Shown in pieces: positions 1-63,892 of a DNA stretch of 64,000 bases. The first letter of the stretch is position 1, and every line of letters begins with the position of its first letter. The position numbers were made by a program, and so were the translations under genes. The notes under the pieces were generated by a model. That model had not been told where the DNA came from, ran no database searches, and saw nothing but the letters and a program-made list of their open reading frames with translations. The stretch comes from Fibrobacter sp. Lineage in GTDB: Bacteria; Fibrobacterota; Fibrobacteria; Fibrobacterales; Fibrobacteraceae. The stretch covers positions 1 to 64,000 of the forward strand of contig JAISUZ010000112.1 of assembly GCA_031271785.1 (NCBI GenBank), written 5' to 3'.

Positions 1-288
1 TGAATAAGGTTAAAAAATTGAGGAAAAGGATCCTTAAATAGACCGTTCAAATATAGTTTCCTTTTTTCGATTTTAGAACTAAAAAAGCTAAAAACACTTT
101 CCGAAAAAAGTCGAAAAAACGATCGTTTTTTATGGTGCCTCGTTTTTCACTTATTTACCCCATTTTTTAATATGCCGTAAAATAAGCATTACCGCAGATT
201 TGGAAAATCTTTCATGCCTTAGCGAACTCAATTAATGCGGTAAATAAACAACGTCAATACGCTTGCGTGCCGACAATGTTTGCGGAGG
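1..288. other. Intergenic, 5' end of window
   Basis: No convincing gene. An 18-bp perfect palindrome of six A, ACGATCGT-type centre and six T lies at 114-131; it could be the terminator of a gene outside the window. A family B palindromic repeat follows at 190-241, and a type 2 composite repeat starts at 289. Short reading frames here (such as 280-477 and 456-830) are repeat sequence or overlap the glgM start. Confidence 0.6.
190..241 (-). repeat. Family B palindromic repeat, copy 1
   Basis: Terminal stem ACCGCA (191-196) pairs with TGCGGT (235-240/241). The interior carries the family core, TTGGAAAATCTTTCATG followed by AGCGAACTCAATT. Related copies lie near 3960, 25326, 25736, 38574, 38626, 41327 and 56772. 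Function unknown. Confidence 0.75.
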
Positions 289-430
289 CATATACGAATG
301 CCTTTTCTTCGCGTGAGGGATGGTGACCCGAAGGGCGGAGACGCGTTTGCGCGGCTCCGTTGCACTCGGCGGGTTCCCCGCCTTAGTGCAATACAGCCCG
401 GCCGGCGCGAAAATCGCGCCGGACACGCCC
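289..430 (-). repeat. Composite structured repeat, type 2 (copy 1)
   Basis: Consecutive hairpins can be read directly: GGCAT/ATGCC at 289-304; GGAG-a-CGCG / CGCG-g-CTCC at 337-358; TTGCACT-GGCGGG / CCCGCC-AGTGCAA at 360-391; and CCGGCGCGA/TCGCGCCGG at 402-422. It ends in ACGCCC. The same layout with different stem sequences occurs at 3561-3714 and 56980-57143. It stands upstream of glgM, which starts at 598. Confidence 0.8.
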
Positions 431-3560: not shown

Positions 3561-3714
3561 GGGCGTGCCCCGGCGACATATTCAATTACGATTAAATGCC
3601 CGTTACTCGCATTTAGTTCATTCGCGCCGGGTCGGGCTGTATTGCACTAAGGCTAAAGCCAAGTGCAACGGAGCCTCTAACGAGTCTCCGCCCTTCGGGT
3701 CACCATCCCTCACG
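3561..3714 (+). repeat. Composite structured repeat, type 2 (copy 2)
   Basis: Starts with GGGCGTGCCCCGGCG one base after the glgE stop codon. Hairpins: CCCCGGCG.. closing with CGCGCCGGG near 3631; TTGCACT-GGCT / AGCC-AGTGCAA at 3642-3668; GGAG-c-CTC / GAG-t-CTCC at 3670-3689. Compared with the copy at 289-430 the inner stems have changed on both arms. The 321-bp reading frame at 3565-3885 is an accident of this repeat. Confidence 0.8.
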
Positions 3715-4219
3715 CATCAATCGGGGCGAAAATATTCGACCCGTTCAGAGGCGATAAAACCCGCTTCTGTCACTGCGAGCCGAAGGCGCGGCAGTCCATT
3801 TTCTTATCATGGCGAGAGCAGAGCCCGCGGCCATCCGGACTCTGTATTGTTCTTCATTGGATTCTCGGATCAGGTCCGAGAATGACAAAGTATCTTTGAT
3901 CGCCGCATTCGCAATAACACTTGTACAAATAAAAAATGCAAACTGAACTAATACGCATTACACCGAAGCGGAAGGCTCCGGGGATTAGGTAACGGCGCAG
4001 ACTTGACAAGTCTTACATGACATTGCGAACTAAGCGGATGCGGAATAAGGGATATGAGATAAGAGAATCCGGGGAAACCGATTTTCCGTGTCCCATGCCC
4101 CTAATTTTTATGCCAGAAGAAGCATAGACGCGCGACCAAGCGGGGTTGGAGCGAGGGGGAGGCTTCCCCCTAAAAAAATCTTATTATTTTTCTTTTATAT
4201 TATTTATGAGGATACGAAA
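3715..4219. repeat. Repeat island: family C, then a family B-like copy
   Basis: 3722-3741 carries a GGGCGAAAATATTCGACCC-like motif shared with 25170 and 38815. 3774-3906 is a family C repeat (CACTGCGAGCCGAAGGCGCG onward) whose second half, 3822-3906, matches the reverse complement of 56675-56757 almost base for base; it contains the palindrome ATTCTCGGATC/GGTCCGAGAAT. About 3979-4035 holds a family B-like copy (CGCA ... TCTTACATGACATTGCGAACTA ... TGCG). The rest up to 4219 shows no gene; GATACGAAAA precedes the next start. Confidence 0.7.
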
Positions 4220-17537: not shown

Positions 17538-17671
17538 CGTATCTGCGGCAGGGATGCGACCCGAATGGGCGGAGATACCGCAGGGAGCTCCGTTTCAGCC
17601 GGTGGTTTTACCACCGCTGAAATGCAAGCCCGGTCCCGAAGGGAGCCACCCAAAAAAAATCAAAGCATCTA
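17538..17671. repeat. Intergenic with hairpin between convergent genes
   Basis: GC-rich. TTTCAGC-CGGTGGT / ACCACCGCTGAAA forms a hairpin at 17593-17622 with one bulged C. It lies between hemE and a convergent gene and may terminate either. It does not match the composite repeat family in this window. Confidence 0.5.
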
Positions 17672-18562: not shown

Positions 18563-20661
18563 GAACGCCGTTTACGAAATGTTTTTTTTCTTTCCTCGGG
18601 CGCGCTTAAGAAGCCCATTTTTTCGGCGGCATCCGCGCGGTTGTCAAAATCCGCCGAGGGCTTTCTCCGCGATGGCTCTTTGGAAAGTTTTTCCAAAATG
18701 GCAAAGTCCACTTCTCCGCGAAGCGGATTCACGCGCAGCACTTGCACCTGCACGCGGTCGCCGCGGCGGAATGTTTTCCCGCTTCGTTTCCCGAACACAT
18801 ACCCTTTATCCGCATTATAGATAAAGTAATCATCAATCGCAATATCGCGGAAACGCACAAGCCCTTCGGCGATGGGGTCGAGGAGCGCTACAAAAATACC
18901 CCATTCTTCCGCGCCGGTGACTTTTGCTTCGAATGTTTCACCCAAGCGGTCTTTCAAAAGCCAAGACGCGCATACTTTAATAGCCACACGTTCGAGCTTT
19001 TGGTTTTTGACTTCATTGGCAGAAATCAAATCGCATACTTCGATTACGTTGTTTGCCCGCGCTTTCTTTTCTTCTTTCGGCGTTCTTGCAAGTTCCCGGT
19101 GGCACCACAAATCGGCATAACGGCGAATCGGCGACGTAAAGTGCGCATAATCCTGCCAGTTCAGCGCGAAATGCCCGAAACTGTTGCTGTCGTAATGCGC
19201 TTTCTGCATGCTCCGCAAAATACGGTTAATCATCGCTTCATCATGGGCGACGCGTTTTATCAAATGCTGATAAAGCGAAAACAGCATCGGATTCAAGTTG
19301 GAATCCCCTTGGCGCGGTTTTCCCAAATCGCGGATGGAAACCGGCGCATCCTTAAACAAATCCGGAAGGAGATAATAAAGTTCCATAATATCGCGCGTTT
19401 CCGGCGCTTCGTGAATGCGGTAAATGCCCTGCAGTCCGCGCCGCTTCAATTCTTTGGCGCAGCACTGATTCGCAATCAGCATACATTCTTCAATCCAGGA
19501 ATTGGATTCGTCGTTTTCCCGCGGCACAATTTTAAGCGGTTCGTTTTTCTCATCGAACACGCAATAAAATTCGGTACTCCCGAGTTCCAAAATACCGCTG
19601 CGGCTCCGGTTTTGTTTCAGCGCGCGCGCCACGGCGGCGAGATTTTTAATTTCAACGCTTCCCTGATTCAAAAGTTCCACCGCTTGCCTGTAAGTCACGG
19701 AAATCTTCACATGAATCACGCTGCGTTCAAAGCGGTACGAAATCACTTCGCCTTTGGTATTCAAATGAATCATGCAAGTAAACGCAAGCCTGTCCACGCC
19801 TTCGTGCAAGGAACACAAATCTCCGGAAAGCCGTTCCGGAAGCATCGGCACCGCCTGCCACGGCAGATACTGCGTAAAACTGCGTTCCAACGCTTCCGAA
19901 TCGAGTTCGCTCCCTTCGGCAACGTAATAACTCACATCGGCAATATGAACCCCGAGCTGAAAAGAGCCGTCGGGAAGAATTTCCACGGAAACCGCATCGT
20001 CGTGATCCCGCGCGCCTTCCGGGTCAATACACACCACCGAAAGCGACCGGTAATCCGCACGCCCTTTAAAATCTTTCGCGCCGGGAACCTGTTTTTTATT
20101 CACATACTCCCGAATGGTTTCGCTGAAATCCGCAGGCAAGTGATTTTCCTGCATAAACTGCGTTGTCACCTCTTTCCAGGAGAGCTGCGGCATATTCGTC
20201 TTTTCCACTTTCGCAAGCATCGTATGTTTTAATTTCGGGTGCGGATAAAGCGAGAAAGCGATTGTTTCCCCTTCTTTCCCCGGAGCATCCTTCCGGTGCG
20301 CCACCGGATATTCTTTTTCGGTAGAAAGCTCTTTCACTACCCAACGGTCTTTTCCGGCAGAATGCAAAACGCCGCGCTTCACGGATGCTTCCGTTCTTGT
20401 TCTTTGGGTGCGGCTCCGCGCGGCAGGGCGGCGGTTATCCTGCGTATCGTCGCTCGCTTCGGCTTTATCGGGATTACCGGGCAAGTATTCTTTTTTCCCG
20501 TTCCGCGAAAGCACACCGTAATGAACCATGTCAGCGAGTTTTTGCTTAAACGAAAGCTTCATTTTTTTCGGAACCCCGAGAGCGCCGCGAAGGCGGCTCC
20601 CGGTCATGGGCTCATCTCTTAACAATGAAAGAATCGCTTCTTGTGATGGGAGTTCAGACAT
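18559..20661 (-). CDS. rnr: Ribonuclease R
   Basis: 700 residues. N-terminal winged-helix region (about 8-65), two cold-shock OB domains, RNB catalytic domain with the metal-binding block DPEGARDHDDAVSV (about 210-223), QYLPWQAVPMLPERLSGD and HFTSPIRRYADLWCHR, and a C-terminal S1 domain (about 590-665) with a basic tail. Processive 3'-5' exoribonuclease of structured RNA. GGAGG five bases before the ATG at 20661 decides the start over an ATG at 20673. It overlaps plsC by 8 bp and the RgpF-like gene by 4 bp. Confidence 0.95.
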   Translation of the reverse strand: MSELPSQEAILSLLRDEPMTGSRLRGALGVPKKMKLSFKQKLADMVHYGVLSRNGKKEYLPGNPDKAEASDDTQDNRRPAARSRTQRTRTEASVKRGVLHSAGKDRWVVKELSTEKEYPVAHRKDAPGKEGETIAFSLYPHPKLKHTMLAKVEKTNMPQLSWKEVTTQFMQENHLPADFSETIREYVNKKQVPGAKDFKGRADYRSLSVVCIDPEGARDHDDAVSVEILPDGSFQLGVHIADVSYYVAEGSELDSEALERSFTQYLPWQAVPMLPERLSGDLCSLHEGVDRLAFTCMIHLNTKGEVISYRFERSVIHVKISVTYRQAVELLNQGSVEIKNLAAVARALKQNRSRSGILELGSTEFYCVFDEKNEPLKIVPRENDESNSWIEECMLIANQCCAKELKRRGLQGIYRIHEAPETRDIMELYYLLPDLFKDAPVSIRDLGKPRQGDSNLNPMLFSLYQHLIKRVAHDEAMINRILRSMQKAHYDSNSFGHFALNWQDYAHFTSPIRRYADLWCHRELARTPKEEKKARANNVIEVCDLISANEVKNQKLERVAIKVCASWLLKDRLGETFEAKVTGAEEWGIFVALLDPIAEGLVRFRDIAIDDYFIYNADKGYVFGKRSGKTFRRGDRVQVQVLRVNPLRGEVDFAILEKLSKEPSRRKPSADFDNRADAAEKMGFLSAPEERKKTFRKRRS

Positions 20662-21421: not shown

Positions 21422-22416
21422 TTTAACTTCCATTGCAATGTTTTTCCGGCAGCGAGCGGCACTGCGCCGTGATAAGAATCCGGAACCACCCAAGGTTCGC
21501 GTACCAAAGTAATGGATTCGGAAGTTCGCGGAAGTCCGTAAAAATCAGCGCCGAAACCGCCGATAAAGTCAGGGAGGAGCGATAACTTACCGGCGTTTTC
21601 AAAAATTTCGGCAAGGAGAGGGATTGCCACCGGAGCCGTATAAACGCCTGCCGCGCCCGGCGCACATTCCTTTTTCTCCCGTGGGTGCGGCGCACTGTCC
21701 GACCCGAAAAAGATTTTCGAACGCCCGCTGAACGCCGCCGCGCGCACCGCCTCACGATCCGCCGGAAACTTAGGGAGCGGCTTGCAAAAATGATGCGGCT
21801 GCAAACCGTCGCCGATCACGTCATCCAGCGTAAGCATCAGATGATGCACGGTAATCGTAGCCGCCACATTTTCCGGCGCGTTCAGTACAAAATCTACCGC
21901 TGCCGCCGTCGAAAGATGCTCAAACACGACTTTCAATTTCGGAAAACGCTCCGCAATGCGTTCCACACGCCAAATAAAAGCGCTCTCGCGATCCAGGCAA
22001 AACGCAGACGGTTCTTCACCGTGTATGGAAAGAACAAAACCGAGATCTTCCATCATCTCAAGAACCGGAAACACCGACTCCAACTCGGAAATGCCGTCCT
22101 GACTGTTCGTGGTCACTCCCGCCGGGTAATATTTCCCCGCCGCCGCGCCCGATGCCTTCATTTTCTCAAGCGTATCGCGCGAGTACGCCGCGTGAAGTTT
22201 AAAAGTCATCAGCGGCTCAAAACGCGAAGCCGAAGCCAGAATCTTTTGTTTGTAATCCAGTAACAACTCCGGAGTCGTAATCGGAGGAATCGTATTCGGC
22301 ATCACAAGACCGCGGCCGAATTGTTCGGCATAATCGGAAACATAACCGGCGAGCGCCTCATCTTGGCGGAGGTGCACGTGAAAATCATCGGGGAGAGGTA
22401 AAATCAAATCGTTCAT
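21418..22416 (-). CDS. pyrC: Dihydroorotase (class II, PyrC)
   Basis: 332 residues, the short E. coli-like class II type. Metal-binding motifs are DDFHVHLRQDE at the N-terminus, KYYPAGVTTNSQDG (Lys to be carboxylated), VFEHLSTAAAVDFV and the C-terminal GSDSAPHPREKKE. Converts carbamoyl aspartate to dihydroorotate. The ATG at 22416 aligns with the family start; longer frames begin in non-conserved sequence. Confidence 0.95.
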   Translation of the reverse strand: MNDLILPLPDDFHVHLRQDEALAGYVSDYAEQFGRGLVMPNTIPPITTPELLLDYKQKILASASRFEPLMTFKLHAAYSRDTLEKMKASGAAAGKYYPAGVTTNSQDGISELESVFPVLEMMEDLGFVLSIHGEEPSAFCLDRESAFIWRVERIAERFPKLKVVFEHLSTAAAVDFVLNAPENVAATITVHHLMLTLDDVIGDGLQPHHFCKPLPKFPADREAVRAAAFSGRSKIFFGSDSAPHPREKKECAPGAAGVYTAPVAIPLLAEIFENAGKLSLLPDFIGGFGADFYGLPRTSESITLVREPWVVPDSYHGAVPLAAGKTLQWKLK

Positions 22417-23155: not shown

Positions 23156-23523
23156 AAAAACCTGCTTTTATGGAATTAATATAGTATTTCAAAATGTATT
23201 TGGGCGTGCCCCGGCGCGAAGCGCCGGGTCGGCGTGTCTCCGGGCTACCCTCCGGTCGGTGCTGCGCACTGCGCGCCAGCGCGCCCCCTCCGCCTGCCTC
23301 ACGTGTCTTCGCGCAATTCCAACACTTTTTGCACATCAATACAGTTCGCTCCGGCATAAAAAGTATTCTCAATGTGCGCCGCCACTCCGGACAAGCATAA
23401 CTACTATTGCGTTGTCATGCGCTGTTTTCTTTTCCGTACCCGGAGATCGGGGTCTGTAACCCCGAAATGATGTATATTTGAAAGCAAATAAGCGTAAGTT
23501 TATACGCCTATAAAGGATACGAT
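23156..23523. other. Intergenic between divergent genes, mostly repeat
   Basis: Holds the composite repeat at 23202-23372. A short inverted repeat GCGTA/TACGC at 23492-23507 lies 17 bp before the ABC ATPase start and might be an operator. AAAGGA (23512-23517) is the likely ribosome site of that gene. No gene here. Confidence 0.5.
23202..23372 (+). repeat. Composite structured repeat, type 1 (copy 3)
   Basis: Begins GGGCGTGCCCCGGCGC, closed at once by GAA-GCGCCGGG, then GGCGTGTCTCCGGGCTACCC, a GCGCGC-ca-GCGCGC hairpin at 23271-23284, CCTCCGCCTGCCTCACG, and a final stem AACACTTTTT (23330-23339) / AAAAAGTATT (23358-23367) with an atypical loop. It lies between divergent genes. Reading frames here (23127-23459, 23194-23400) are repeat accidents. 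Confidence 0.8.
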
Positions 23524-24387
23524 ATGAAAATAAAAGTGAGTCACTTACAGTTTTCTTACGGTACGCATCAAGTGTTGAATATTTCCAATACCGAATTCGA
23601 ACAAGGGAATATTTACGGAATTGTCGGAAAAAACGGCGTGGGGAAAACCACATTTTTCAAGGCACTGACCAATATTATTACAAATTATAAAGGTTCTGTG
23701 AAAATTGACGGTATCGAGGTTAAAGAAAACCTGAAAGCGTTATCGAAAGTCGGTATCGTACTCGATGATATGGATTTATATAAAGGCCGCACCGGTTTAT
23801 TCAATATGCGTTATTTCGGCGGTTTGCGCAATGGCTTTAATGAATCGCAAGCGGTGGCGCTTGCCAAAGAATTGGAGATTGCCGGCTTTTTAGATAAAAA
23901 GGTGAGTACTTATTCGCTCGGCATGAAAAAGAAATTGATCTTGCTGATTTCGATTATGAACGATGCGGAAATTCTTATTTTCGACGAGCCTTTTCGCGGG
24001 CTCGATGCCAAGAGCGTCAATTGGTTTAAAACGTATCTTTTGGAACTGAAAAAACAGGGTCGTATGATTTTGATTTCGAGCCATGTACATGAAGATATTG
24101 CCGCGCTGTCCGATAAGGTTTTTGTGATGAGTCACGGCGATTTCCGGGATATTTTTGATTTGAAAGACAGTGCTCAGTATTTTATCTATAAAGTGGAAGT
24201 CAACGATAAAGCGGCTTTCATGGAACTGCTGTCGGCGAAAAATATTTCCTGTGAAGAACAGGGAGCGCTGATAAAGTTTGAACTCGATGAGGCGCGGTAC
24301 CGCGATTTATTTAAAGAAACGGTGGCGCAGGATATTGAGTTTATGCAAATTAAAAGAGAAAACAAATTCGTGGATTTAATCAAGTAG
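23524..24387 (+). CDS. ABC transporter ATP-binding protein
   Basis: 287 residues. Walker A GKNGVGKTTFFKAL (about 37-50), signature YSLGMKKKLILLISIM, Walker B ILIFDEPFRGLD and switch His in LISSHVHED. Single nucleotide-binding domain of the exporter type, with a C-terminal about 70-residue extension. Pairs with the membrane protein starting 11 bp downstream. Substrate not evident; the pair resembles bacteriocin/peptide or multidrug exporters. Confidence 0.92.
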   Translation: MKIKVSHLQFSYGTHQVLNISNTEFEQGNIYGIVGKNGVGKTTFFKALTNIITNYKGSVKIDGIEVKENLKALSKVGIVLDDMDLYKGRTGLFNMRYFGGLRNGFNESQAVALAKELEIAGFLDKKVSTYSLGMKKKLILLISIMNDAEILIFDEPFRGLDAKSVNWFKTYLLELKKQGRMILISSHVHEDIAALSDKVFVMSHGDFRDIFDLKDSAQYFIYKVEVNDKAAFMELLSAKNISCEEQGALIKFELDEARYRDLFKETVAQDIEFMQIKRENKFVDLIK

Positions 24388-25121: not shown

Positions 25122-25838
25122 GCCTAAAGTATTGGGAGGGGGATGCCCTCGCTATGACAAAAAAAATCGGGCCGAAAATATTCGACCCCTGCCATCATTA
25201 TTGTCCTGTTTAAATTACAAATCGAAATCCGGAATAATATTTCTATTCCCGACATTTTATACCCGAAGAACTTGAGTTGCATTTTACATTTTTAAGGCGT
25301 TTGTATATGCCGTAAAATAAGCATCACCGCACTTTTGGAAAGTCTTTCATGCCTTAGCGAACTCAATTAATGCGGTAAAACAACGTCAATACGCTTGCGT
25401 TTTATATTGGAAGAATTTGAGTTACATTTTCACATGAGCGCGGTTCTCAATGCTTTGGGGACAAATTTTTAGGCTGGAAGCCGCTCCAATTTGTCCCGAA
25501 GCGTTGGAACCGTGCGAACATTGCGTGAGGCAGGCGGAGGGTGCGCGCAGTGCCGGATATTTCTCGGATTTCTCAAGAGTGAAATGCAGGGATAAGGGAA
25601 TGGGGGCTATGGATAAGAAGACTCAATCATGTCCCCTGTTCCGTACCCGAAGAACCGAAATATCCGGCACCGACCAACGGGTAGCCCGAAGCCCCGCCGA
25701 CCCGGCGCTTTAAAATGGACCCTGACCAAGCGGCGGCACACATTTGGAAAATCTTACATGCAAGTGCGAACTAATTGGTGTGCAAAACGAGTTCAGGGTA
25801 ACGGAGAGTGGTCGCGCCGGGGCACGCCCAAAAAAAGT
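25122..25838. repeat. Repeat island: family D, family B, composite type 1 (copy 4)
   Basis: 25169-25310 is family D, matching the reverse complement of 38687-38835 with few changes. 25326-25376 is family B (ACCGCA/TGCGGT). 25448-25506 is the conserved-loop hairpin and 25507-25829 the rest of a type 1 composite repeat in reverse orientation, ending GGGGCACGCCC nine bases from the stop of the release-factor-like gene. Within it 25736-25783 is another family B copy with GCACAC/GTGTGC ends. Reading frames across it (25450-25713, start of 25629-26270) are not genes. Confidence 0.75.
25448..25506 (+). repeat. Conserved-loop hairpin, copy E1
   Basis: Left arm 25448-25467, loop TTTAGGCTGGAAGCCGCTCC (25468-25487), right arm 25488-25506. 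The loop is identical at 56910-56929 and, on the minus strand, at 41220-41239, while the stems differ. Confidence 0.85.
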
Positions 25839-26285: not shown

Positions 26286-26303
26286 TTTGAGGTAAACATC
26301 ACG

Positions 26304-27002
26304 ATGCATTCTTTTAAAAATAAATCCTTTGCGGCGATCCTGCTTGTTTTCGCTTTTCTTTTTTCGGCCTGCGCCGCTACTTCGGATAATCCGGACGCTT
26401 CGGCGAAAACCTATTCGCAGGTGCAAGAGAATAAACAGATGCTTCTCGAACAGAGTTTTGCGAGTTTCCGGGATTATGTGAACCGCGATATGCCGCCGGA
26501 GAGTTTGTTTGTGTTTATTACCGATACTTCGCGTTACTGGATGGATACTCTCGAACTCGCCGCTCAAACCGAGTCGCTGAATCTCTTGGAGGAGCGCCCG
26601 TTTCACGAGGTGCTCGCGATTATCACTTACCGCCTTTACGAGAAGGAAAAAATGTGGACGGTTCCCGAAAACCGCATGCTTTTCATTATGATTTCCAAGA
26701 ACGGGATTCTCTGGAAATTAACCGATCAGGATTTCGGGCCGGCGGAAGTGCGGAACGACCGCGGGACAGTGGGGCTTTCGATTACGCCGAAGATTCCGCT
26801 GATGATTTTTACCTGGGATGACCTCTCGTGGCGACTGAATTTGAGAGAGACGATGCCGCTCGTGATGAGAGGTTTCGAGACCATTGCCATTAAAAAGAAT
26901 TGGACCAAGACGCAGCTTGCGCTGGATATTCTGGAGAAAGAATTCCGGTACGATGTTTTGACGATTGATGATTCGCTCCTTTGGCCGATTCCTGCGATTT
27001 AA
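26304..27002 (+). CDS. Lipoprotein of unknown function
   Basis: 232 residues. Signal peptide with lipobox LFSAC (Cys at 22), then a mixed domain with no motif I recognise; it includes YWMDTLELAAQTESLNLLE and PLMIFTWDDLSWRLNLRETM. Probably anchored in the envelope. GAGG lies 11 bases before the ATG at 26304. It heads a plus-strand run (lipoprotein, Nudix, SDR, ispG, serA). Confidence 0.75.
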   Translation: MHSFKNKSFAAILLVFAFLFSACAATSDNPDASAKTYSQVQENKQMLLEQSFASFRDYVNRDMPPESLFVFITDTSRYWMDTLELAAQTESLNLLEERPFHEVLAIITYRLYEKEKMWTVPENRMLFIMISKNGILWKLTDQDFGPAEVRNDRGTVGLSITPKIPLMIFTWDDLSWRLNLRETMPLVMRGFETIAIKKNWTKTQLALDILEKEFRYDVLTIDDSLLWPIPAI

Positions 27003-38356: not shown

Positions 38357-39230
38357 ACTTGTTTTGACTTTTGGCGTGCCCCGGCGCATTCATATAAAAC
38401 CGGCATGAAAACCGCGCCGGGCCGGCGTAGCTCCGGGCTACCCGCTGGTCGGTGCTGCGCACTGCGCGCAAGCGCGCACCCTCCGCTTGCCTCACGCGAA
38501 GAAAAGGCATTCGTATATGCCTCCAAAAACATTGTCAGCACGCAAGCGTATTGACGTTGTTTTACCGCATCAATTAAGTACGTTCCGACATGGTAAAACT
38601 TTCCAAAAGTGCGGTGATACTTATTACCGCATCAATAGAATTGCCCGATTATGTAAGACTTTTCAAGTCTGCGGTGATGCTTATTTTACGGCATATACAA
38701 ACGCCTTAAAAATGTAAAATGCAACTCAAGTTCCTCGGGTATGAAATGTCGGGAATAGAAATGTGATTCCGGATTTCGATTCACAATTGAAACAGGACAA
38801 TAACGGCGGCAGGGGTCGAATATTTTCGACCCGGTTTTAGAGCGGAAAAACTTGTTTCCGTTACTGCGAGCCGAAGGCGCGGCAGTCCATTTTCTTGCCA
38901 TGGCGAGAGCATAGCTCGCGGCCATCGTTCCTCCTTGGATCGCTTCACGCGTTCACGATGACAAAAAGAGGGGGCTCCGATAACGGTGAGTTTTCAATAA
39001 CTGAAACATGTAAAACGTTTCAATAAGAACGTTCTAACAAAACAAAAAAATCGGCGCCGCTACCTTGTCCCATTTCCCAAGGTTTCCAAGTGAGAAGAAC
39101 AAACTCGTACGGGTTACTATCCCTCGCGCGTTAGTGTTCGCCACCGGAGAAAATAAGAATATTGAGCAGAAGAGCTTACAAACTCTAACCTTCGGTTATT
39201 ATATTTATAAGCTATGGAAAGCAGGTATTT
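38357..39230. repeat. Repeat island: composite, family B x2, family D, family C
   Basis: 38373-38520 composite copy (see its entry). 38574-38615 and 38626-38675 are two family B copies side by side, both ACCGCA...TGCGGT. 38687-38835 is family D, reverse complement of 25169-25310. 38858-38935 matches the first half of family C at 3774-3838. From about 38960 to 39230 no repeat or gene is seen; it must hold the promoter of the DUF4321 gene. Confidence 0.75.
38373..38520 (+). repeat. Composite structured repeat, chimeric type 1/type 2 (copy 5)
   Basis: Starts GGCGTGCCCCGGCGC 16 bp after the gpsA stop. The body is type 1 (CTCCGGGCTACCCGC, small hairpin TGCGCGC-aa-GCGCGCA at 38463-38478), but the distal end is type 2 (CTCACGCGAAGAAAAGGCAT with the GGCAT/ATGCC hairpin). 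This shows that the modules recombine. Confidence 0.8.
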
Positions 39231-40991: not shown

Positions 40992-41258
40992 GGCGTGCCC
41001 CGGCGCCACCACCGTCACCCTGATCCTGAAACAAGTTCAGGATTCAGCATCCAAAAAAAGAACAAATTTGGATGCTTTGTGCATCAGTATCCACTATAAA
41101 GCGCCGGGTCGGCGTGTCTCCGGGCTACCCGCCGGTCGGTGCTGCGCACTGTGCGCTTCGCGCACACCCTCCGCCTGCCTCACGCGTCTTCGCGCGATTC
41201 CAACACTTTTTTCAAAACCGGAGCGGCTTCCAGCCTAAAGGTTTTGAAAAAAGTATTG
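40992..41258 (+). repeat. Composite structured repeat, type 1 with conserved-loop hairpin (copy 7)
   Basis: Starts GGCGTGCCCCGGCGC 19 bp after the gatA stop. The first stem (CCCCGGCGC/GCGCCGGG) has its loop filled by about 93 bp that include the palindrome ATCCTGAAAC/GTTCAGGAT. Then the type 1 body with hairpin TGTGCGC-ttc-GCGCACA (41150-41166), then a 19-bp hairpin (41201-41219 with 41240-41258) around the invariant 20-nt loop. Confidence 0.85.
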
Positions 41259-56151: not shown

Positions 56152-56890
56152 ATCAGAAAAGGGATAGAAGGGGGAAGTTTGCGCATCAATTGAGTTCGAG
56201 CGGTCATGTAAAATTTTTCAAGCCTGTGATGTCATTTCTGCGTTCAGCTCCGGCATGATACTTTGCTTTTAATAAAAGGGGGAGGCCCCCTCGCTTCAAC
56301 CGGCGTTAATCGCTCCGTCTTTTTCGGCTTCACCCGTCGCCGGCCGTCGCGCGCCGTTTTCCGCTACCCCCTTGAATGCATGATCTTCGGGGATGGAAAG
56401 CGGGGACATAAGGGATGTGGGACCAGGTAGCGGCGCACATTTTTTTGCTTTATTAGAACATTCATAAATGAAACTTCTTTATAAATGGCAAATCATACTT
56501 ATTGGAAAGTTTTACATGAAAGTACAACTTCATTGATGCGCAAAAACAAGTGGATCCTGAACCGAGTTCAGGATGACTGTGTTATGCAACGTTCTTTTTC
56601 CGTCATGCTGAATTTATTTTACACACCGATTAGTTCGCGCTTGCATATAATGTCATCGCGAACGCGGAACGCGTGCGGCGATCAAAGATACTTTGTCATT
56701 CTCGGACTTGATCCGAGAATCCGGTGAAGAACAATACAGGGTCCGGATGGCCACGAGCGATGATACTTATTACCGCATCGGTTTAGTTCGCTAGGTTTTG
56801 TAAGACTTTTCAAACCTGCGGTGATACTTATTCCCTGTTTGCAATTCCCGAGGAACTCGGCAGCAATTTTTTATCCCTAAACGCGATTCT

Positions 56891-56948
56891 CAATGTTCCG
56901 AGACAAATTTTTAGGCTGGAAGCCGCTCCAATTTGTCGCGGAGCGTTG
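56891..56948 (+). repeat. Conserved-loop hairpin, copy E2
   Basis: Arms 56891-56909 and 56930-56948 (19 pairs with two G-U and one mismatch) around the invariant 20-nt loop at 56910-56929. Confidence 0.85.
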
Positions 56949-56979
56949 GAATCGCGCGGGAGCGGCATTTTACATTTTC

Positions 56980-57143
56980 AAGGCGTTTGTATATGCCTTT
57001 TCTTCGCGTGAGGGATAGTGACCCGAAGGGCGGAGACGCTTCGCGGCTCCGTTGCACTTGGCGATTTCGCCTTAGTGCAATAGAGCCCGACCCGGCGCAT
57101 TATAGTGGACCCTGACCAAATGCGGTTGCGCCGGGGCACGCCC
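56980..57143 (-). repeat. Composite structured repeat, type 2 (copy 6)
   Basis: GGC..GCC hairpin at 56982-56997; GGAG-a-CGC / GCG-g-CTCC at 57032-57050; TTGCACT-GGCGA / TCGCC-AGTGCAA at 57052-57080; CCCGGCGC / GCGCCGGGG around 57090-57136; end GGGGCACGCCC at 57133-57143. It lies just upstream of the activase gene start at 57219. Confidence 0.8.
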
Positions 57144-57218: not shown

Positions 57219-60200
57219 ATGGGCTCTAATAATACTGATTTATGGATTGGAATGGATGTCGGCTCCACAACCGTGAAGATTGCGGTGGTCGATCCTCAAA
57301 CCGGAAAACTGCTGCATAATTCCTACCAGCGGCACAACGCGATGCAAGCCGAAAAAGTGATGGAGCTTTTGAAAGAGGCTCACGCGATGTTCCCCGGGAA
57401 AAAATTCGGCGTTGCCTTCTGCGGCAGCGGCGGTCAGCCCTTTGCCGAAGCGACGCACGCTTTTTTTGTGCAGGAAGTGGTCGCTAACGCTCTCGCAGTA
57501 CGTTCTCTCCACCCGGAAACCCGGGTCGCGATCGAGCTCGGCGGGCAGGACGCCAAAGTGATTTTCTTTGAGAAAGACAGAACCACCGGTAAACTCATCG
57601 CTTCCGATATGCGCATGAACGGCGTTTGCGCGGGCGGGACCGGCGCTTTTATCGATCAAGTCGCGGAACTTCTCCGTATTAAAACCGAGCAGTTCGAGTC
57701 TTACGCTTCTCAGGGAAAAAAGGTTTACGAGATTTCCGGGCGGTGCGGCGTATTCGCCAAAACCGATATTCAGCCGATGCTGAACCAGGGGATCGCTAAA
57801 GAAGATATTGCTCTTTCGAGTTTCCACGCGATTGCGAAACAAACCATCGGCGGGCTCGCTCAAGGGATGGAAATCAAGCCGCCGGTGATGTTTGAAGGCG
57901 GCCCTCTCACGTTTAACCCGACTCTCGTGCGGGTGTTTAAGGAACGCCTCGGGATTTCCGACGAGCAGGCGATTATTCCGGAGCATTCGGAAATTTTTGT
58001 CGCGCTCGGCGCGGCTCTTTCCCTCGGTTCCATGTTTAACGAGAAAGAAAGTCATTACGATGAAAGCGCTTCTCTCGATGCGCTCGCACATTTTAACGCT
58101 ACAAGACAAGCGGAACGCGGGAACGACGGCGAGCCGTTTTTCAAGAATGAGGCGGAGCTTGCCGCTTTTAAAAAACGTCATCCGCTCGCGAGTCCGCACT
58201 ATCCCCAACCGGTTTCCGGTTCCGTGGTGAACGCTTACCTCGGTATCGACGCAGGCTCCACCACCACCAAGATGGTGCTTCTCGATGAAAACGAACAGGT
58301 AATCGACGGGTTTTATGCCGGGAACGACGGCGAGCCGCTCGCGGTTTTAAAACGCGCTCTCGTTTCTCTCGCCGACCGCTACGAAGAGTTCGGTTGCAAG
58401 CTGAATATTCTCGGCGTGGGCACCACGGGCTACGGTGAACAGCTTTTCGCGAAAGCGATTAAGGCGGATTACCATACGGTAGAAACCGTCGCCCATGCAA
58501 ACGCCGCCCAATACCTCCATTCCGATGTTTCATTTATTCTCGATATCGGCGGGCAGGATATGAAAGCGATTTCCATTCAAGACGGCGTGGTGACGGGAAT
58601 CATTTTGAACGAAGCCTGTTCCTCGGGCTGCGGTTCCTTTATTGAGACTTACGCGCGCTCCCTCGGTATCCCTATGGAACAAATTGCGGAGCTTGCATTT
58701 AACGCCAAGAGTCCATCGAAACTCGGGAGCCGCTGCACCGTATTCATGAACAGTTCCATTATCACGGAACAGCGCGACGGCAAACAGCCCGAAGATATTA
58801 TCGCCGGAATCTGCCGCTCTATTATCGAAAACGTTTTCACCAAAGTGATCCGCATCCGTAACCTCGAGACCCTCGGTAAAGTGGTGGTGGTTCAGGGCGG
58901 GACTTTCAAAAACGACGCCGTTCTCCGCGCATTTGAACAACTCACGGGTTTTACGCCGATTCGCCCGGAACGCCCGGGGGAAATGGGAGCGATCGGTATT
59001 GCGCTCCTCACCAAACGCCACATGGAGAGTAAGCGGGCGGAAAACCCGGAGACGCCGAGTTCGTTTGTCGGACTTGAAGCCATGCGGACCTTCAGCTGGG
59101 ATAATAAGCCCGGGCAAATCTGCAAATACTGTACCAACCATTGCAGCCGCACGATCGTTACGTTCAGCGACGGTTCGAGTTTTGTAACAGGTAACCGCTG
59201 CGAACGCGGCGAAGTTACCGCCGACCCGAACGATCCGGAAACGAAAAAAATCGTGGCGGAAATTCACAAAAAAATGCTCGCCGTCCCGGACATGATCAAG
59301 CGCACAAACCAGCTTCTCGTGAAAGATTACGGTCCGGCTCCACTGGTGCCGCAATCCGGAAAAACCATCGGTATTCCGCGGGTACTCGAATTTTGGGTGA
59401 GTCTCCCCTATTGGAAAGCATTCTTTACCTCGCTCGGCTACAACGTGGTTATCAGTAAAATAAGCGATTATCCGTTGTTTGAAAAAGGGCTTCACAGCGT
59501 TCCTTCGGACACGGTTTGTTTCCCGGCGAAACTCGTACACGGACACGTTCTCGACCTTATCGAGAAAAAGGTGGACCGGATTTTCTTCCCATGCATGATC
59601 GCAGTCCCGAGCGACCACAGCAAATTTCAAGCCACCGCCGTTTGCCCCGTGGTGCAAGGCTACCCGAACGTTTGTAAAAACACGGACGATCCGGAAGGGC
59701 GTTACCATACGCCGCTTGATCAGCCGACATTCCACTGGTTCGATACCAAACTCCGCCGGAGCCAGACCATCGACTGGTTCCACGAAAACTGGAAACTCTC
59801 GAAAAAACTGCTCGATAAAGCAGTGACCGAAGGCGAAAAAGCGTTGCAGACTTACCGCGATACTCTCCTTGCCGAAGGCGGACAAATTCTCGAAGACACG
59901 AGAAAAAAAGGTCAGTTCGCGGTGGTCATTGCCGGAAGACCTTACCACGCCGACACGCTCGTGAATCACAACGTCGCCACGCACTTTACTTCTATGGGAA
60001 TCCCGGTGCTCACCACCGAATCGCTCCCGGGAGTTTACGATCAGGACGTTCCGAAAGTCACGCGTATCGAACTCAAGAATACCTTCCATTTGAGAATGCT
60101 CGGCGCCACCATGATTGCGGCTAACGATCCGGCGATCGAACTCGTGCAGATTGTAAGCTTCGGCTGCGGACACGATTCCATTCTCACCGACGAAATGAAC

Positions 60201-63307: not shown

Positions 63308-63892
63308 TCAATTCAAATAATAAGCCACACCAAATTTTAATTGTACGTGATTCACTTCGGCGAGCGAAGAATCCGTATTTCCGATAATCGCAAGTTTGCA
63401 ATCTATTTTTACTTTATTCTTAATCGTAAAACCAAGTCCGAGCGGTATCACGTTAATATAAATGTCTTTCCGGCCTTTGATCCAATTATCCTTATTGTCA
63501 TTGTTCACAACTTTAGAATAAACAGGAATATCCAACAAAAGACCGACGGCAAAGAAAAACGAACCATAACGGCGCGGCGTGAATTGAAGCGTAACCGGAG
63601 TATTCAACATCCACTCATTCAGGCTTACGTCAATATCAGGATCTTTAATCGAATGGTATTCCAAATTCACTTCCGGCGCAATGCTTAAACGACTGCCCAA
63701 CGGAATGCGAACAGCACCGCCCAATTCAAAACCAAAGCCCAAGCCGCCAACCATTTCATAACCGTAATCATTAAAATCAGCAGTCATTATATGCTCAGAG
63801 AATCCGGCTTTCAGCCCAAACTGCACTTTGCTTTCCTGTGCAAATGTAAAAGATACGCTCACAAATATTAACCACAAAACCAGTTTCTTCAT
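63308..63892 (-). CDS. Outer-membrane beta-barrel protein (porin-like)
   Basis: 194 residues. Signal peptide MKKLVLWLIFVSVSFTFAQ, then alternating strands (VQFGLKAGFSEHIMTADF, GFGFELGGAVRIPLGSRLSI, VNLEYHSIKDPDIDVS) ending in the terminal aromatic-type strand VQLKFGVAYYLN. This is the eight-stranded OMP_b-brl pattern. Ligand unknown. AAAGGA precedes the ATG. Convergent with the ABC-F gene. Confidence 0.85.
   Translation of the reverse strand: MKKLVLWLIFVSVSFTFAQESKVQFGLKAGFSEHIMTADFNDYGYEMVGGLGFGFELGGAVRIPLGSRLSIAPEVNLEYHSIKDPDIDVSLNEWMLNTPVTLQFTPRRYGSFFFAVGLLLDIPVYSKVVNNDNKDNWIKGRKDIYINVIPLGLGFTIKNKVKIDCKLAIIGNTDSSLAEVNHVQLKFGVAYYLN

Follow-up and report, generated by a model that had tools for sequence, protein, structure and literature searches.

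Frpo1 and Frpo2 of the F plasmid are single-stranded DNA promoters, reportedly described as such by Masai and Arai in 1997, and Frpo-like sequences are also said to occur on ColIb-P9. The CUP leading-region repeats of R46/pKM101 reportedly go back to Delver and Belogurov in 1997. For most conjugative plasmids outside the enterobacteria, we know of no account of how the reading or copying of the incoming strand starts. On F, Frpo2 precedes ssbF and Frpo1 precedes ygeA/ygeB; the two are 92% identical and lie about 5 kb apart, and recipients need both of them to express the adjoining genes early (PMC9849209). Leading genes use the transferred strand as their template (PMC11541004). CUP is described as longer than the element reported here, with a promoter and an ArdK site (PMC5371602, PMC6289460). 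REP/BIME and MITE repeats are likewise high-copy, palindromic and intergenic, and REPs consist of single hairpins of 20-40 bp with GTAG/CGTC tags (PMC3733652, PMC2817692).

The window, a 64,000-nucleotide stretch of contig JAISUZ010000112.1 from a Fibrobacter sp. assembly, carries four copies of a folded element with a length of 105-280 nt. Three of these (289-430, 3561-3714 and 56980-57143) had been reported in a preliminary description and are present there, with boundaries now refined by a covariance model; the diverged fourth copy had been missed. The model, R1, was built from a MAFFT/RNAalifold alignment to which seven genera contribute 18 copies, and a second model, R2, was trained without F.

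310..429, + strand: element copy 1 (R1 110.8 bits, E 2e-21)
3562..3716, - strand: element copy 2 (R1 107.8 bits)
17544..17650, + strand: element copy 4, diverged (R1 56.7 bits, E 7.5e-11; R2 46.3 bits)
57005..57142, + strand: element copy 3 (R1 113.6 bits, the best match in the genome)

A gap of 2 bp separates the 3' end of copy 2 from the stop codon of a gene that converges on it from the opposite strand. Across the 2.28-Mb, 112-contig genome, R1 yields 122 matches at E <= 0.01, nearly all of full length, and matches are found in 86 of 111 genomes of the Fibrobacteraceae, covering 7 of 11 genera. Model E-values are rough by design, the assemblies are drafts, and open reading frames near the copies were called by simple rules.

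Structurally, the element follows a multibranched architecture, in which an outer stem encloses a long-range helix with three hairpins and a fourth hairpin outside this helix. In copy 1, the domains are arranged as follows.

311-315/424-428, + strand: outer stem P0, GCGTG/CACGC
317-319, 321, 322 / 394, 395, 397-399, + strand: helix P1', GGG-A-TN/N-A-G-CCC, enclosing three hairpins
327-329/333-335, + strand: hairpin Pa, CCC/GGG
337-340/355-358, inner part 342-345/350-353, + strand: hairpin P2
360-366/385-391, inner part 368-373/377-382, + strand: hairpin P3
402-410/414-422, + strand: hairpin P4, the fourth hairpin, outside P1' and within the outer stem

The preliminary description had named a 'type 2 composite repeat' of nested hairpins. 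Its stems are all found, namely TTGCACT/AGTGCAA with inner GGCGGG/CCCGCC, GGCT/AGCC and GGCGA/TCGCC, and GGAG/CTCC with inner CGCG/CGCG, CTC/GAG and CGC/GCG. They constitute the inner parts of the larger fold, of which P0, P1', Pa and P4 had been overlooked, and the family is not a local unit, as it spans several bacterial phyla. DNA folding of copy 1 predicts the same topology at -47.4 kcal/mol (z -7.2), compared to -43.4 for the complementary strand. A similar preference is seen when the transferred-strand orientation, defined below, is compared to its complement in F (-22.2, z -2.5, vs -16.9, z -0.2) and in Bradyrhizobium (-18.1 vs -13.3). Some short plasmid copies have weak folding energies, and three plasmid copies (L191, L324 and L251) do not fold significantly better than shuffled sequences.

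The paired positions covary extensively. RNAalifold, run on the unbiased MAFFT alignment of the 18 copies, recovers 30 pairs, 9 of them with changes on both sides; 98.5% of cells pair, compared to at most 47% when the partner columns are slid. Within the window's own genome, changes affect both partners in 415 cells and one partner, giving a different standard pair, in 37, and 105 cells are unpaired; this count comprises 110 hits in 107 distinct rows, as a few places were fetched twice, and leans towards the model because the alignment was fitted to it. The preliminary description had argued that the both-arm changes in the inner stems are hard to explain by drift, and that copies with one arm altered as often as both would speak against this. 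Two-sided changes outnumber one-sided ones, the pattern lies far beyond chance, and the stems are constrained in a way that drift alone does not account for.

The core of the fold differs from the initial RNAalifold prediction, which paired GGG1 with CCC1 and GGG2 with CCC2. This model was replaced by GGG1-CCC2 and CCC1-GGG2, with 21 unpaired cells in the former and 6 in the latter, counted over the competing bases only in 52 diverse sequences. The revised pairing of GGG (317-319) with CCC (397-399) was first hinted at by DNA folding and by diverged plasmid copies, and compensatory core variants are seen in R388 (GTG/CAC), a Leisingera plasmid (AGG/CCT) and pTiBo542 (CCG/CGG). P1' is further extended by a T-A pair and by a freely varying pair between bases 13 and 85. 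In alignment A2, which like A3 was fitted to R1, this pair is AT in 24, GC in 19, CG in 16 and TA in 8 of 72 sequences, so that 67 of 72 are Watson-Crick, compared to 19.9 expected if the positions were independent; among the own-genome hits, 79 of 89 are Watson-Crick (34.3 expected). With the added pairs included, 96.7% of cells in the 18-pair core are paired and 13 of the 18 pairs show two-sided changes, compared to at most 50% pairing with slid partners. The outer stem occurs as GCGTG/CACGC, GCGTT/AACGC, GCGAA/TTCGC and GCGTC/GACGC, each with its covarying partner.

The structural family, with a length of approximately 80-280 nt, extends to Alpha-, Beta- and Gammaproteobacteria and Myxococcales, and to well over 1,000 plasmids. 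Among the matches listed in a DNA pattern scan of species genomes are Fibrobacter, Phenylobacterium, Bradyrhizobium, Nitrobacter, Hyphomicrobium, Lichenibacterium, Reyranella and Myxococcales, and R1 confirms full-length folds in these genomes, with E-values of 1e-16 to 1e-5 for nearly all. Genomes outside the Fibrobacteraceae carry 1-8 copies each. BLAST searches with three subtypes returned 155, 233 and 1,387 plasmid records, sets that overlap and include many near-identical plasmids; 1,238 of the 1,387 records, which belong to the gamma/beta subtype, are typed as conjugative, and in E. coli 409 of 411 BLAST-detected places are on plasmids. Four variants of the core sequence have no printed occurrence that we could find in the open-access literature. 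Viral contigs contain no exact pattern match; two gut phage records show weak partial matches to the element (MT836905.1, 7190-7249, and MT835687.1, 534-581). In Phenylobacterium, two species (loci L242 and L244) carry chromosomal copies at apparently the same place, and one copy lies near a protein that, by eye, resembles the cell-cycle regulator GcrA.

On plasmids, the inspected copies are intergenic, and their neighbours are ssb, parB-like, ardC/zincin, DUF736, DUF932, DUF2493 or toxin-antitoxin genes. In all 13 plasmids with readable polarity, the element has relaxase, mobC, coupling protein or oriT genes on its 5' side and the leading genes on the opposite strand; these plasmids represent fewer independent cases than their number suggests because the plasmid backbones are related. 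The set comprises pTiBo542, p203740_35, R46, R388, F and plasmids of S. aliaeris, R. leguminosarum, S. yanoikuyae, M. iwaonis, N. resinovorum, M. huakuii, R. atsumiense and S. zoogloeoides. Since entry starts at oriT and proceeds through the leading region, and the leading genes use the entering strand as template, the conserved strand would be the transferred strand, with the direction of transfer read from gene order. In ICE-like regions of Bradyrhizobium, genes for ArdC and ParB-like proteins again lie beside the element on the opposite strand, as recognised by eye from predicted proteins. The plasmid and ICE relatives share a leading-region position; no conjugation gene families were found in the genome of the window copies.

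Two of these plasmids illustrate the arrangement. The leading region of R388 (IncW) contains sites at 20078-20210 and 24084-24216, the second approximately 600 bp upstream of ardC; we found no function assigned to them in the open-access literature. On the IncN plasmid R46, sites at 23790-23879 and 26295-26384 lie between genes of the CUP-controlled region, and a further site (22079-22163) follows stbC. Some CUP intervals are without a model match, the two being compared by description rather than by exact CUP coordinates.

The closest correspondence to a described system is observed on F. Within F 50000-70000, R2 identifies exactly two sites, 58092-58173 and 63480-63561 (E 5e-12 and 2e-10), both in the transferred-strand orientation and 5.4 kb apart. 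The first lies approximately 470 bp upstream of ssb, the second upstream of ygeA. Each occupies the gene-distal end of a duplicated block (58070-58621 and 63458-64011; 559 nt, 89% identical) that is the only long unique duplicate in this region. As these blocks are found at the published Frpo positions, we conclude that the element forms part of, or abuts, Frpo1 and Frpo2, a match by published position and not base by base. The window copies differ from Frpo in being chromosomal and numerous, and the conserved core contains no -35/-10 pair in a simple scan, which has low power, being blank on the F block as well. On ColIb-P9, no match to R2 was obtained, and a 68-nt block adjoining the element is 94% identical between F (58175-58242) and ColIb-P9 (27885-27952). 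This retained neighbour suggests that the element has either diverged on ColIb-P9 or is a separable module.

Taken with the leading-region position and uniform polarity, these data make it fairly likely, in our assessment, that the element is a very widespread structural family acting as folded single-stranded DNA, which on plasmids and ICEs serves as a module of Frpo/ssi-type leading-region initiation sites. We postulate that the transferred strand, upon entering the recipient, would fold into the fixed multibranched shape and might thereby help host enzymes (RNA polymerase and/or primase) to start RNA synthesis on single-stranded DNA. Such synthesis could drive leading-gene expression, prime the complementary strand, or both, and the conserved fold, rather than the neighbouring sequence, would be the working part. 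In the Fibrobacteraceae, the same fold has probably turned into a chromosomal intergenic repeat with recombining flanks. A core common to F, R388, R46, Ti and rhizobial plasmids and proteobacterial ICEs would offer a single searchable and mutable target, and the covariance model would locate leading-region sites that lack sequence similarity.

The strongest of the competing explanations is a non-autonomous mobile repeat of the MITE or REP type, mobilised by a transposase that recognises the fold and present on plasmids by hitch-hiking. The roughly 122 copies in one small genome, their scatter between genes and their mosaic, repeated left flanks would fit such an element. Among the own-genome copies, 5' flanks are repeated in 62 of 99 cases, compared to 2 of 100 for 3' flanks (98 of 100 unique), and several repeated modules make up the 5' flanks in mosaic fashion, as seen for two of the window copies.

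165..309, + strand: repeated left-flank modules of copy 1, including GGCATATACGAATGCC (direct repeats D3 and D6, inverted repeats I4 and I8), outside the conserved fold
56799..57004, + strand: repeated left-flank modules of copy 3 (D5, I2; flank clusters)

Modules such as GACAAATTTTTAGGCTGGAAGCCGCTCCAATTTGTC and GGGTCGAATATTTTCGACCC recur beside elements in varied combinations (25460-25516, 56902-56958 and many other loci). The combination of unique 3' and repeated 5' flanks had suggested retrotransposition with 5' truncation, which was rejected, as the left flanks are module mosaics and not truncations of one master. Replication strand, judged by GC skew, shows no bias (36 of 70 own-genome copies), which likewise removed a chromosomal lagging-strand function from consideration and is at odds with the bias usual for single-strand transposition. 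Mobility is further disfavoured by the fixed plasmid polarity, by the lack of a recognised target duplication or of a common protein gene noticed beside copies across lineages, and by base-pairing that stays exact across several phyla, something a selfish repeat in decay need not maintain. In contrast to the single hairpins of REPs, the element is a multibranched fold shared across phyla. We therefore regard a mobile repeat as an unlikely origin.

Less likely still is an attC-like site, in which cargo gene and element would together form a cassette exchanged by a site-specific recombinase on a folded single strand. Integron attC sites recombine as folded single strands and mark the 3' end of cassette genes, and the element's position resembles theirs, as the Fibrobacter element often begins 3-10 bp past the stop codon of an accessory gene. 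Flank exchange is also evident: among 49 sites, 12 pairs share the right flank only (in 9 of these, sharing starts exactly at the 3' end), 6 the left only and 2 both. The exchange points are nevertheless scattered over the 5' end, the core and the 3' end in different pairs, as expected from homologous recombination between dispersed copies. The ends do not conform to RYYYAAC/GTTRRRY, the outer stem varies freely, and the best integron integrase score in the window's genome is 73.5 bits against a cut-off of 265. On the basis of end boxes, integrase and scattered breakpoints, an identity with integron attC was rejected. Integron-type integrases above the curated cut-off occur in two relatives (loci L117 and L118), with no element found beside them. 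In Fibrobacter, some copies precede 3' fragments of the housekeeping genes carB, valS, thrS, nifJ and rfbB, read by eye from the proteins. At three loci (L106, L247 and L249), a carB fragment lies directly 3' of an element, with an intact carB elsewhere; in the genome of L247, restriction-modification-like genes lie between the intact gene and the fragment.

We give little credence to the idea that the element works as RNA, be it in a 3' UTR or as a small RNA. In its favour, 38 of 51 own-genome 3' ends that face a convergent gene come within 36 bp of its stop codon, the conserved unpaired purines look like RNA motifs, and GT mismatches (31) exceed A-C mismatches (13), favouring the plus strand. 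Wobble pairs nevertheless make up just 31 of 2,089 cells (1.5%), Rfam returned no family match even at relaxed thresholds, and on plasmids the leading genes are transcribed from the other strand, so that the plus strand would need a promoter of its own. Given the scarcity of wobble pairs, the fixed plasmid polarity relative to transfer and the location of the F relatives in a single-stranded DNA promoter block, probing RNA structure in vivo would probably address the wrong molecule, and folded single-stranded DNA is the better candidate. A promoter of neighbouring chromosomal genes was also considered and rejected, as no promoter-like arrangement towards the left genes was observed (50 on the same strand, 32 on the opposite strand in the own genome).

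It is hardly credible that template switching, by repairing hairpins to perfect palindromes, produced the covariation free of structural selection: wobble intermediates are very few and the inner hairpins of P2, P3 and P4 vary freely between copies, but the single pair 13/85 covaries although the helix arms are some 70 nt apart with three hairpins between them, the outer stem covaries over its full length so that covariation is not confined to terminal hairpins, and unpaired bases are conserved across phyla.

Returning to the single-strand initiation module, we on balance favour the chromosomal copies being an expanded repeat descended from it. Neither relaxases (PF03432, PF08751) nor a VirB4-type ATPase (PF03135) were detected in 13 genomes (the window's and 12 relatives), which leaves the chromosomal copies without an evident conjugation process. 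An expansion without conjugation genes found is a puzzle, and it makes the function of the fold testable outside conjugation; the fold may aid the start of copying or reading of DNA that arrives as one strand. ComEC is encoded in all 13 genomes; it is common in bacteria, and its presence alone proves nothing. More speculatively, and in our estimate improbably, a single ancestral single-strand DNA initiation structure that a universal host enzyme recognises could be the common basis of Frpo, of CUP and of numerous leading-region sites so far unrecognised in several phyla; in the Fibrobacteraceae it would have grown into a chromosomal system, over 100 copies strong, that operates on single strands as they come in (e.g. 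in natural transformation) and seeds the exchange of accessory and defence genes.

The window additionally contains another type of repeat, which shares the ends of the element (GCGTGAGG ... GACCCGGCGC..GCGCCGGGGCACGCC) but has a different core, located at 23221-23303 (-), 38414-38496 (-) and 41101-41183 (-), with a part at 25667-25725 (+). Weak model matches at 38373-38498 and 40992-41186 overlap two of these, and the repeat is possibly a diverged cousin of the element.
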